A DNA stretch of 64,000 nt from Paracoccaceae bacterium. GTDB taxonomy: Bacteria; Pseudomonadota; Alphaproteobacteria; Rhodobacterales; Rhodobacteraceae. The position numbers and the translations under genes were made by a program. The stretch spans positions 1-64,000 of the forward strand of contig JALUYI010000042.1 in NCBI GenBank assembly GCA_027013095.1. The letters run 5' to 3'. Positions 19,929 through 24,306 of this stretch are shown piece by piece. The notes under the pieces are model-generated. The model was given only the letters and a program-made list of their open reading frames with translations. It searched no databases and had not been told where the DNA came from. The stretch's first letter is position 1. Each line of letters starts with the position of its first letter.

Positions 19929-20600
19929 TCAGGCGTCCGTCTGGCGCGACAGGATGGTCGAGAATTCATCTGCCAGCCGGTCAAGACCGGCGGCCAGTTT
20001 GTCCGCATCCGCCGACAGCTTGTTGTAGAAAATGACCGCCGGGATTGCCGCCAGAAGGCCCAGCGCCGTGGCAACCAGGGCTTCGGCAATCCCCGGCGCG
20101 ACGACTGCAAGGTTGGTGCTCTGCTGCGCTGCAATCTCCTGAAACGCATTCTTGATGCCCCAGACGGTCCCGAACAAACCGACAAAAGGCGCGGTTGAGC
20201 CCACCGTGGCCAGAAAGGTCAGCCCATGATTGAGGCGCGCGACCTCTTCGGAAATTGCAATGTCCATCGAGCGATCGACACGCGCCTGCACACCGGGGAT
20301 CATCCGCCCGTCGGTGCGGCGCGAGCGCTCCCATTCGGTCATGCCCTTGCAAAAGACGCGCTCAGAGGCTCCACGCGGCGTCTCGCGGATTCGGCCAAAT
20401 AGCAGATCCAGCGGCTCTCCGGACCAAAAGGCCTGCTGGAACATTTTGGCGTCGCGCTTGGCAATGCGGAAATTGATGAACTTCTGGATGATGATCGCCC
20501 AGGACCAGAAGGATGACAGGATCAACGCCAGAAGCACCAGCTTGACAACGAAAGCGGCGCGCAAGAACAGCGCGAGAATTGAAAAGTCTACGGGTTGCAT
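19929..20600 (-). CDS. tolQ: Tol-Pal proton channel protein TolQ
   Basis: Three-helix inner-membrane subunit of the TolQR motor. Helices at about 8-32, 125-150 and 160-185; the second and third carry the MotA/TolQ/ExbB signature TVGSTAPFVGLFGTVWGIKNAF and IAEALVATALGLLAAIPAVIFYN. 223 aa is typical. First gene of the tol run, 104 bases after ybgC. That gap contains a tandem ATACCAAAT repeat. Confidence 0.96.
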   Translation of the reverse strand: MQPVDFSILALFLRAAFVVKLVLLALILSSFWSWAIIIQKFINFRIAKRDAKMFQQAFWSGEPLDLLFGRIRETPRGASERVFCKGMTEWERSRRTDGRMIPGVQARVDRSMDIAISEEVARLNHGLTFLATVGSTAPFVGLFGTVWGIKNAFQEIAAQQSTNLAVVAPGIAEALVATALGLLAAIPAVIFYNKLSADADKLAAGLDRLADEFSTILSRQTDA

Positions 20601-20654
20601 CAGCCTGCTCTATCTGGAGGTCCGCCGGTCTGGCATTCTCCGTTTTGGGACGTC

Positions 20655-20683
20655 ATACCAAATCTCAGCGGGCAATACCAAAT
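20655..20683. repeat. Tandem 9-bp direct repeat upstream of tolQ
   Basis: ATACCAAAT occurs at 20655-20663 and again at 20675-20683, exactly 20 bases apart, about two helical turns. It lies 55-83 bases before the tolQ start, in the ybgC-tolQ gap. Same-face spacing suggests a dimeric or tandem regulator site; the regulator is unknown. Confidence 0.5.
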
Positions 20684-20704
20684 TTTTGCGCCGGGAACAG
20701 CCGT

Positions 20705-21115
20705 TTATTCCACTGCCTGGGTCAATTTTTGGCGAATTTCCGCCGGAATCCGCCGAGCACGCCCATTCTGGGCAAGGCAGACAAGGGTCACGGCAGCCGA
20801 AAACAGCCGGGTCTGCGCCCTTGACACCGTTTGCTGCAGAAAGATCCGTGCGCCGGTCAGGGCGCGAATGCGGCTGTGGACCACGAGATCATCTTCAAAC
20901 TGGGCGCTGGCCAGATAATCCGCTTCGATATGCCGGACCGCAAACACGATCCCATCCGCAGCCTTCAGGCCCAGTTGATCCACCCCGAGGGCGCGAATGT
21001 ATTCGCTGCGCGCGCGCTCGATGAACTTCAGGTAATTGGCGTAATAAACGATACCGGCCAGATCTGTGTCCTCGTAATAGACCCGCAGCCTAAACCGATG
21101 CGTCTTGTCGGTCAT
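20705..21115 (-). CDS. ybgC: Tol-Pal-associated acyl-CoA thioesterase YbgC
   Basis: Hotdog-fold thioesterase (136 aa), commonly encoded at the head of tol-pal clusters and thought to act in phospholipid-related acyl transfer. The signature YYEDTDLAGIVYYANYLKF is at residues 13-31, with the presumed catalytic Asp18. ATG 21115 has GGAGGGG exactly seven bases upstream. The start overlaps the 3' end of the preceding hypothetical gene by 26 bases. Confidence 0.94.
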   Translation of the reverse strand: MTDKTHRFRLRVYYEDTDLAGIVYYANYLKFIERARSEYIRALGVDQLGLKAADGIVFAVRHIEADYLASAQFEDDLVVHSRIRALTGARIFLQQTVSRAQTRLFSAAVTLVCLAQNGRARRIPAEIRQKLTQAVE

Positions 21116-21770
21116 CCTCAAGCCCCTCCAACAATTTGCCGGCCCTTGCCGCCAGCCGTATCGCGTGGCTGCGATCGGTCGCCGAGGGGGGCAGCGCCGG
21201 GTCATACGCCGCCCGGATCACCGCCGCATAGGCGGGTTTCACGATACACATGCCGTTGCCCGGAACGATAGCGATGGGGCTGTCCTCGTCAAAGGCCTCG
21301 TCCCCCCACAACAGGATGCACTGGGTCATCTGCCCGACGCCCAGCGTCTGGATCGGTGTCTCGGCCATGTAGTCGTCATAGCGCAGCAGCACGATGCAGA
21401 CCTTGATCGCGCCGTTTTCGTCGAACGAGAAGGTCCGGTATTGTGTTGCCCCGGTGCGTTTCAACGAGCCTTTCAGGATGTCGAAATCCGGCAGCAGCTT
21501 GTCCAGATTCGGCACCATGTCCAGTTCATCCCAGTCCTGACAGAAAAAGAACATCAGATTGGCGCCCAGTTCGGGGTCGGTCTCAACAAAGGCCATGTCG
21601 GCAATTCCCAGCACCGAGGTCATGGCATCCTTGAGGTGGTCCAGCGTCTCATCGTCCACGCCAAAAACCACCGGGGCAATCGGGCGGCCCCAGCGCGAGA
21701 AACGATAGGTGCCGTCCTTGGCGCGAAACAGCGCCTCGATACGGTCGGCAGGCAGGGTGTCATCGCTCAT
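21090..21770 (-). CDS. Conserved-looking cytoplasmic protein of unknown function
   Basis: 226 aa, acidic, no signal peptide or membrane helix. Notable segments are FRAKDGTYRFSRWGRPIAPVVFGVD near the N-terminus, FFFCQDWDEL (about 95-104) and IVPGNGMCIVKPAYAAVIRAAYDP (about 170-193). I do not recognise the family. It starts directly at the ruvB stop (TGAATG) and overlaps ybgC by 26 bases, so it is embedded in a translationally coupled ruvB-orf-ybgC chain. Confidence 0.8.
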   Translation of the reverse strand: MSDDTLPADRIEALFRAKDGTYRFSRWGRPIAPVVFGVDDETLDHLKDAMTSVLGIADMAFVETDPELGANLMFFFCQDWDELDMVPNLDKLLPDFDILKGSLKRTGATQYRTFSFDENGAIKVCIVLLRYDDYMAETPIQTLGVGQMTQCILLWGDEAFDEDSPIAIVPGNGMCIVKPAYAAVIRAAYDPALPPSATDRSHAIRLAARAGKLLEGLEDDRQDASV

Positions 21771-22802
21771 TCAGTCGTCTCCAAACAGATCGGGTTCAGC
21801 CCCGTCCACAGGAGGCTCCAGCCCAAGATGGCGCCACGCCCGGGCCCCCAACATCCGCCCGCGGGGGGTGCGTTGGATCAGGCCCTGTTGCAGCAGATAG
21901 GGTTCAACCACCTCTTCTACAGCATCGCGCGCCTCAGACAATGCGGCAGAAATGGTCTCAACCCCCACCGGGCCGCCGCCATAATGTTCGGCCAAAAGCC
22001 GCAAATAGCGCCGGTCGGCCCCGTCCAGGCCGATCTTGTCAACCCCCAACCGGTTGAGGGCATGATCGGCAACCTTGCGTGTGATCTTGCCGTCTCCCTC
22101 CACAACGGCGAAATCCACGACCCGCCGCAATAGCCGGCCTGCCACCCGCGGCGTGCCACGCGACCGGCGGGCAATCTCGCGCGCGCCGTCAGGCAGGGCC
22201 TTTATCCCCAAAAGTCCGGCGGCTCGGGTGACGATCTGCAACAACTCGTCCTCGGTGTAGAACTCCAGCCGGATCGGAATGCCAAAGCGGTCGCGCAGCG
22301 GCGTTGTCAACAGGCCCAGACGCGTCGTCGCCCCGACCAGTGTGAATGGTTGCAGGTCGATCCTAACGGTGCGCGCCGCGGGCCCCTCACCGATGACGAG
22401 GTCCAGTTCGAAATCCTCCAGCGCCGGGTACAGCACCTCTTCAACCACCGGGTTGAGGCGGTGGATCTCGTCAATGAACAACACATCACCCTTGTCGAGA
22501 TTGGTCAGGATCGCAGCCAAATCTCCGGCACGCGCCAGCACCGGACCGCTGGTCATGCGGAAATTTACCCCCAGCTCGCGGGCGATGATCTGGGCGAGAG
22601 TCGTCTTGCCAAGTCCGGGCGGGCCGTGGAACAGCGTGTGGTCCATCGCCTGCCCCCGCTTTCGCGCGCTTTCGATGAATACCTTCAGATTTGCGCGCGC
22701 GGCCTGCTGTCCGGTGAAATCCTGCAACGTCTGGGGCCGCAGGGCGCGGTCCGCATCCTGTGGCTGCTCTTCAGGGCGCAAGATCGGGTCTGATTCGTCC
22801 AT
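21771..22802 (-). CDS. ruvB: Holliday junction branch migration helicase RuvB
   Basis: AAA+ motor that drives branch migration with RuvA. Walker [12 protein letters not shown], Walker [12 protein letters not shown], and the C-terminal winged-helix ending [17 protein letters not shown] are all present. 343 aa is standard. Three bases after ruvA and abutting the next hypothetical gene. Confidence 0.98.
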
Positions 22803-22805
22803 CCC

Positions 22806-23531
22806 TTATCCTTTCGGGGCCAGCAATCGCAGGCAGGCCCGGATCAGGGTCTGGGTGTTCGGCGCCTCTGACGCGGCCGTCGCCTCGGCGATGGCGCTGG
22901 CCGCCTCACCCTGCCCGTAGCCGAGGTTGACCAAGGCTGACAGGGCCTCGGCGCGGGCCGCGGCGGCGCCGCTTTTGGCCGCCTGCGCCAGTCCCGAGGA
23001 GGGCGAACCAGCCCCAGAACCGCTGGATTCTGCAGGATCGGGCGCGACGGAATCGATCACGGAGGAGGCTACCACCTCGCGGTCCGCCTGCATGGTTTCC
23101 ACCGCCCCCGCCGCCCCCATGGCAATGACCGAGGGGGCCTTGTCCTTCAATTCGATCACCACACGTTGCGCCAGCTTTGGGCCAACACCCGGCGCGGCCT
23201 TGATCGCGGCCGCATCGCCCAACGAGATCGCCCGCGCCACCCCGTCCGCGCCCAGCGTGCCTGAAATCGCCAGCGCAACCTTTGCCCCGACCCCCTGCAC
23301 GCCGGTCAGAAGGCGGTGCCATTCCTTGTCGGCAAGCGTGGGAAACCCAAACAGTTGCAGGTTGTCTTCGCGCACCAGAAGATCGGTATAAAGCGCAACC
23401 CGCCCGCCGGGGACCGGCATCAGCGCCAATGTCGGCTGGCTGCAGTAAACGATATAGCCAACACCATTCACATCGATCAAAACATGGTCCGCCCCGCGAT
23501 ATTCCAAACGTCCGCTAATCTTTCCAATCAT
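22806..23531 (-). CDS. ruvA: Holliday junction DNA-binding protein RuvA
   Basis: Forms the tetramer that holds four-way junctions for RuvB. The N-terminal OB domain ([26 protein letters not shown]) is followed by helix-hairpin-helix motifs ([14 protein letters not shown] and [19 protein letters not shown]) and a C-terminal domain that touches RuvB (about 190-241). At 241 aa it is longer than the E. coli protein (203), owing to an Ala/Ser-rich linker at about 150-190. The start overlaps the ruvC stop by four bases. Confidence 0.97.
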
Positions 23532-24043
23532 CGGCCGCGCGCCTCCGCCCGCTCAAGAGCAGCCGCCAAACGCCCGGAAAACTGTGCGTGGTGCGCATGG
23601 CACAATGCGATCGCAAGGGCATCTGCCGCATCCGGGCCGTTGATGCTGGCCGTCGGAAACTGGGTCTGCACCATGTGGATCACCTGATCTTTCTGGGCGT
23701 GCCCCACCCCGACCACCACTTTCTTGATCGTGTTGGGGGCATATTCGGCAACCTCCAGACCGTGCGCGGCCGGCACCAACAAGGCAATCGCCCGCGCTTG
23801 CCCCAGTTTCAACGTGGCTGCGCCGTTGGTGTTGACAAAGGTCTGCTCGACCGCCGCGGAATCGGGCGAATGGCGCTCAAACACCTCGTCCAGCGCGATG
23901 TGCAAACGCAACAGACGCGTCGCCAGCGGCCCTTGGCCAGAGCAGCACACCCCGTTTGCCACGTGGGTTATCCGACCGCCAGAGACATCAATGATGCCCC
24001 ATCCCATGTGGCGCAACCCCGGATCGATTCCCATGACGCGCAT
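23528..24043 (-). CDS. ruvC: Crossover junction endodeoxyribonuclease RuvC
   Basis: Resolves Holliday junctions by paired nicks. Asp7 in [10 protein letters not shown] begins the catalytic acidic set; [23 protein letters not shown] and the [15 protein letters not shown]-terminal motif complete it. The start ATG 24043 (171 aa) is preferred because the family begins exactly at this motif; the frame extends to 24094 without homology. First gene of the ruvCAB run, preceded by a LexA-box-like element. Confidence 0.97.
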
Positions 24044-24077: not shown

Positions 24078-24128
24078 GTTCTTATTGTGCGCAACTAGCA
24101 CGAAACAAGAACATTTACCAGTATGTTC
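24078..24128 (-). promoter_or_regulatory. LexA-box-like operator upstream of ruvC
   Basis: On the minus strand GTTC-N7-GTGC (24112-24098) differs by one base from the alphaproteobacterial SOS box GTTC-N7-GTTC. A mirrored, looser half (GTTC at 24079-24082) lies across a 7-base centre. A perfect GAACAT/ATGTTC inverted repeat with 8-base spacer (24109-24128) overlaps the far side. The sites lie 36-85 bases before ruvC, where they would cover a promoter with a TTGTTT -35. Confidence 0.55.
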
Positions 24129-24306
24129 GGCTTTTTTTGCGCGCACGACAGGGCGTGGGAAAAAAAGTTCGACGGCCTGCAAAACCGTAATACGCCGAAG
24201 ACGAAAATTACGTCGTTTTCAGGCCGGAATTTCAGCGATTCTGTCGCTTTCAAACCTCAGCAAACCCCTATGCAATGGACGCATTCCGGCCATGCAACAT
24301 GACCAA

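Follow-up and report, generated by a model that had tools for sequence, protein, structure and literature searches.

The 64,000-nucleotide stretch analysed here (the window, contig C42 of a 2.91-Mb genome whose close named RuvC relatives are Rhodobacteraceae, including Amylibacter) carries on its reverse strand a closely packed series of genes headed by ruvC, which encodes the 171-residue Holliday junction resolvase (23528-24043; PF02075, TIGR00228). The start of ruvC is placed at the ATG at 24043 and not at the TTG of a longer reading frame because the RuvC proteins of relatives align from residue 1 at this position. The ruvA gene (22806-23531; TIGR00084) overlaps the end of ruvC by 4 nt, ruvB (21771-22802; TIGR00635) follows 3 nt after ruvA, and directly behind ruvB lies the gene of a 226-residue protein (21090-21770) that has no Pfam or NCBIfam match and is matched by tblastn in 43 of 65 loci. 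This gene overlaps the ybgC thioesterase gene (20705-21115; TIGR02799) by 26 nt, and tolQ (19929-20600; TIGR02796) comes after a gap of 104 nt (20601-20704). Upstream of ruvC, on the same strand and 54 bp before its start codon, the sequence GTTC-TTGTTTC-GTGC at 24098-24112 forms a putative LexA-type operator, assigned from sequence and conservation, with half-sites GTTC (24109-24112) and GTGC (24098-24101) in the context CTGGTAAAT-GTTC-TTGTTTC-GTGC-TAGTTG. The earlier note had described this site as one base off the alphaproteobacterial SOS box GTTC-N7-GTTC, which is correct, the second half-site being GTGC. Some 50 bp farther upstream than the ruvC promoter, a T run accompanies a terminator-like hairpin (24172-24188, reverse strand), the one such hairpin found in the scanned region, where 3.9 are expected by chance; the scan of this region for terminators and the sigma-70 consensus gave no match at the ruvC box.

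As bare sequence the ruvC box is unremarkable and not above chance, since the window holds 52 sites with at most one mismatch to GTTC-N7-GTTC against 48.2 ± 6.9 in shuffled sequence, a count that would suit a functionless chance match. The number of perfect boxes in the whole genome (76) is likewise uninformative and was set aside as evidence because the reversed control pattern is no rarer (84). With a scoring matrix trained on recA, lexA and uvrA sites, ruvC sites being excluded, the ruvC site scores 13.1 bits and ranks 3rd of 127,972 window words, within the range of the training sites themselves when scored leaving one gene out (5.5 to 20.2); two other window sites score higher, so that the score by itself was rejected as proof. 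Two inverted repeats that had been noted around the box are real as letters, namely a mirrored half-site GTGC-N7-GCAC at 24087-24101 and a GAACAT-N8-ATGTTC pair at 24109-24128, but each occurs in only one of 119 ruvC upstreams, the window's own. As the window contains 209 perfect 6-bp inverted repeats with loops of 4-12 nt, these repeats are incidental and provide no evidence, and they were discarded as a second operator or as part of the site.

The evidence for function comes from comparison. The exact 17-base pattern GTTCNNNNTTYGTGCTA is matched in 274 of 296 family genomes (completeness ≥95%), usually in one copy, against about 36 of 296 for a reversed control pattern (counted by hand from the table). 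GTTC-N7-GTGC is present in all 30 ruvC upstreams L052-L081, which comprise the window genome's own and those of 29 relatives, beginning 47-93 bases upstream of the start codon. A set of 119 non-identical ruvC upstreams has it within 130 bp in 106 cases and contains no GTTC-N7-GTTC. The set of 119 leaves aside six outsiders (L119, L120, L129, L132, L136, L137), loci of other orders and duplicate sequences and includes genomes chosen because the pattern or lexA was missing, so the fraction of 106 in 119 probably understates the frequency of the box. Of the 22 genomes lacking the exact pattern, three (G094, G117, G167) still have GTTC-N7-GTGC and were scored as keeping the box, and near misses in G198 (ATTC-N7-GTGC) and G123 (GTTC-N7-GTAT) were scored as lost. 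G286 and G290 have no readable ruvC upstream. The family consensus at ruvC is roughly C-TTGGC-nnAT-GTTC-nCGTTTC-GTGC-TA. The box is thus clearly conserved beyond chance, which refutes a chance origin and leaves the probability of a functionless match practically nil, and it occupies the promoter of a DNA-repair gene in relatives as it does here, as a LexA operator would. By the strict consensus GTTC-N7-GTTC, the box fails here and in the matched relatives because of its GTGC half-site; this does not disqualify it, since one-mismatch boxes also recur at recA and uvrA, and it is a variant rather than a plain member of its class.

The same block of sequence reads as a promoter. In an alignment of the 106 upstreams, in which the GTTC and GTGC columns are invariant by construction because they were the search pattern, a putative -35 element lies at columns -9 to -4 (CTGGTA at 24116-24121, reverse strand, in the window; TTGGC in the family consensus), 18 bp before a putative -10 hexamer (TAGTTG at 24092-24097, reverse strand). 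The T, T and G of the -35 element are present in 73, 92 and 83% of the 106 upstreams, the window's own element beginning CTG; the spacer is 18 bp long, and TGC is followed by TA in at least 98%. Beyond this TA the hexamer is poorly conserved, and its last position is T in 11% of the upstreams, in agreement with the report that most alphaproteobacterial promoters analysed have no -7 T (PMC8407463). One flank alignment was restricted to the 31 ruvC upstreams with full flanks. The letters T12-G13-C14-T15-A16, from the end of the box into the downstream TA, constitute by sequence an extended -10 (TG-C-TA) whose hexamer begins 18 bases after the TTGGC-type -35; its TG, at 24099-24100 on the reverse strand, is shared by all 106 upstreams of the alignment, where the search pattern imposes it, and the G is the very base by which the half-site differs from GTTC. 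With a TTG-type -35, a spacer of 16-18 bp and TG-n-TA, the region has the features of a predicted sigma-70 promoter with an extended -10, and at ruvC half-site and promoter seem to be fused. Position 13 is G in the ruvC sites but in none of the recA, lexA and uvrA training sites, and LexA may for this reason bind the ruvC site poorly. The shared base would be held by the promoter at the operator's cost, and operator and promoter strength may be unable to vary independently, since the base that breaks the half-site would also create the extended -10.

The genome encodes one protein that matches the LexA DNA-binding family, on contig C46, and NCBIfam identifies it as LexA (TIGR00498). Perfect GTTC-N7-GTTC boxes are present upstream of its own lexA (GTTCTACAAGTGTTC and GTTCAGCCTAAGTTC) and its own recA (GTTCCTGTTGCGTTC), and a one-mismatch box is present upstream of uvrA (GATCACGGTTTGTTC). 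The encoding of LexA together with boxes at lexA and recA is what a LexA operator at ruvC would presuppose, and the comparison with recA and lexA that the earlier note had proposed comes out in its favour, as neither gene uses a clearly different box. The perfect box is found upstream of lexA in all 28 upstreams read from 30 loci, the start motif not being found in the other two. The recA upstreams of the family, 16 of which were read from 18 loci, have it in 15 cases, L197 and L202 having been left unread for the same reason. Further perfect boxes in the genome precede an MmcB-like gene and a UvrD-type helicase gene, and another stands 11 bases before a gene of the impB/mucB/samB family, which we read as ImuB-like. 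Many of the recA and uvrA boxes of relatives end in TTTTG or TTCG before the final letters, like the ruvC box, and the layout GTTC-N3-TTT is common to the ruvC box and to many recA and uvrA boxes. The placement at recA is also similar, as many relatives carry GTTCnnnTTTTGGTC, i.e., GTTC-N7-GGTC, within the 17-bp spacer of TTGAAA-N17-CATA, the corresponding site of the window genome being poorer (GTTC-N7-GGCC), and the lexA box overlaps TTGACA-N17-TAGAAC and runs into its -10, TAGAAC.

Two side observations concern boxes at other genes. At uvrA, the genus shows another fixed one-base departure from the consensus: the first half-site is changed to give GATC-N7-GTTC, with GGTC in L355, in each of the six loci whose start was read (the genome's own L347, and L351, L355, L358, L360 and L362). 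Overlapping perfect boxes, GTTCTAAAAAAGTTCTTTACAAGTTC, lie just before a small open reading frame on contig C18 (L026:1501-1526, 1536-1703; about 99019-99221 of the contig). Its product of 55 residues (or about 40) is without a match in Pfam or NCBIfam and has, as judged by eye, one likely membrane helix, making it a candidate SOS-induced small membrane protein in the manner of Caulobacter SidA.

Natural losses of lexA provide a second line of comparison. LexA is found in 290 of the 296 family genomes, two of these (G089, G159) having very weak matches only, and the LexA DNA-binding domain (PF01726) does not reach the Pfam cut-off in G061, G089, G097, G159, G164, G165, G171 and G286. Three of these eight genomes, G061, G089 and G171, lack the ruvC box and show no recA box even when one mismatch is allowed. 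The ruvC promoter of G171 is still recognisable (TGGTTAAT-GTTT-ACCATTT-GTGT-TAGTG), with the last C of both half-sites lost and the TG and TA retained. The perfect recA boxes of G164, G165 and G286 make it likely that lexA is missing only from these assemblies; of the three, G164 and G165 still have the ruvC pattern, and the ruvC upstream of G286 is cut at a contig end. In G164 some 200 bp separate the pattern from the aligned start, for which reason it was scored as kept in the Fisher test and as missing among the 119 upstreams. The absence of lexA from G097 is probably an assembly gap as well, this assembly having no recA and a retained ruvC box. G159 (loci L236 and L321), assembled in 3 contigs, is a counter-example: the box is kept as GTTC-ATGCTTC-GTGC, the TA after it reads TG and the recA box has one mismatch, a state that fits either a recent loss of lexA or a replaced regulator.

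Among the 287 evaluable lexA-positive genomes, 13 have no ruvC box (G026, G113, G123, G129, G143, G152, G194, G198, G225, G266, G271, G294 and G297). The recA box stays perfect in nine of these, so that local turnover accounts for at least nine of the losses, and four have one-mismatch recA sites only. The box is lost in 3 of 7 evaluable lexA-negative genomes against 13 of the 287 (Fisher p = 0.004, a value that ignores kinship and assumes that pattern matches lie at ruvC, their position having been read directly in the fetched loci only). Where both lexA and a perfect recA box are missing, the ruvC box is lost in three genomes of four (G061, G089, G171) and kept in G159.

These comparisons bear on a simpler account, in which the conserved block serves a different regulator or is simply a strong core promoter, and its likeness to a LexA box is coincidental. 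The block does contain -35-like and extended -10-like letters, its GTGC is a non-canonical half-site, and it persists in G159 despite the very weak lexA match there. A core promoter, for its part, would have no use for the GTTC and the T-rich run in the spacer, to which the conservation also extends, nor would it account for the occurrence of the GTTC-N3-TTT layout in many recA and uvrA boxes or for the fate of the block in G171, where the promoter letters remain and the final C of each half-site is lost along with the recA box. We regard this account as improbable.

The explanation that we consider very probable is that a LexA operator lies inside the promoter spacer of ruvC, is weakened by a base that it shares with the promoter, and places ruvC, ruvA and ruvB under SOS control. 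The earlier suggestion of a LexA operator before ruvCAB is in this respect supported by the conservation of the box, by the boxes at recA, lexA and uvrA and by the three genomes without a detected lexA that lack both the recA and the ruvC box. LexA would bind GTTC-N7-GTGC between the TTGGC-type -35 and the TA of the -10 and block RNA polymerase, and DNA damage would lead to RecA-stimulated cleavage of LexA and free the ruvC promoter, raising expression of ruvC, ruvA and ruvB and probably also of the packed genes down to ybgC. The second half-site would keep its T-to-G change throughout the family since these bases also provide an extended -10 before a poor -10 hexamer, so that the ruvC operator would give up LexA affinity in favor of promoter function. 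Whether a half-broken operator has been fixed by selection at ruvC, giving ruvCAB a weakly repressed, late or partly constitutive SOS setting, we judge to be evenly balanced.

How far such a switch would reach depends on the genes downstream. Read-through from ruvC to ybgC is likely, as judged from the gene arrangement, because each gene of the series from ruvC to ybgC overlaps or closely adjoins the next in the window; in relatives, the median gaps along this series, estimated from tblastn ends, are also short (-10, 16, 1 and -34 nt in 63, 59, 37 and 29 loci). This arrangement makes plausible the part of the earlier note in which SOS induction carries over to the hypothetical 226-residue gene and ybgC, but the proposed extension to the tol genes and envelope constriction is unsupported. 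That extension, in which the ruvC switch would also raise ybgC, tolQ and the genes behind and so couple DNA damage to envelope constriction, draws on the same packing and meets the gap before tolQ, which measures 104 nt here and has a median of 134 nt in 47 related loci (the same tblastn-end estimate, overstated where the tolQ of relatives starts earlier). Many of these gaps contain AT-rich, promoter-like stretches, as judged by eye, so that tolQ likely has its own promoter. Moreover, the ruv-ybgC-tol neighbourhood is described as widespread (PMC3403352) and needs no SOS explanation. SOS control of the tol genes is speculation, and we consider the coupling to envelope constriction unlikely. 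Several loci from other families of the class (L286-L300) have ruvC directly after a coding stretch with EDNDDVQ-like letters, which we take to be the end of YebC, and several show no sign of a separate ruvC promoter.

LexA control of ruvC is in itself already known or predicted. In Caulobacter, ruvC is reported as a LexA-regulated, DNA-damage-induced late SOS gene (PMC12700426), and putative LexA sites before ruvCAB have been reported for alphaproteobacteria (PMC3323433). The likeness to the Caulobacter crescentus ruvC promoter (PMC12700426) is drawn at the level of the gene, and the sites in PMC3323433, from Vibrionaceae and alphaproteobacteria, share LexA control of ruvCAB, predicted in the latter group, whereas the GTGC variant and the promoter overlap are absent from their description as available there. 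With the alphaproteobacterial SOS box the ruvC site shares the first half-site, the 7-base spacing, the T-rich spacer end, the promoter position and the target gene, and it differs in its second half-site. The family recA spacer site has in common with it a forward GTTC in the promoter spacer and an imperfect second half-site, and differs in having an extra perfect inverted box downstream and its imperfect base at position 12, not 13. The portions of the open-licence LexA/SOS literature covered, which was not queried for the GTGC form by name, yielded no mention of that form. As far as the literature searched reaches, the occurrence of GTGC across the family and its apparent fusion with the promoter are new; the system itself is of an ordinary type, and the variant is neat and conserved. 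A site that a plain consensus search ranks among chance matches thus turns out to be a promoter feature very well conserved in a large family, and the natural losses of lexA serve as controls that make it a clean case for the co-evolution of an operator and a promoter sharing bases. Such shared bases may bear on how the level and timing of expression of a repair operon are set.
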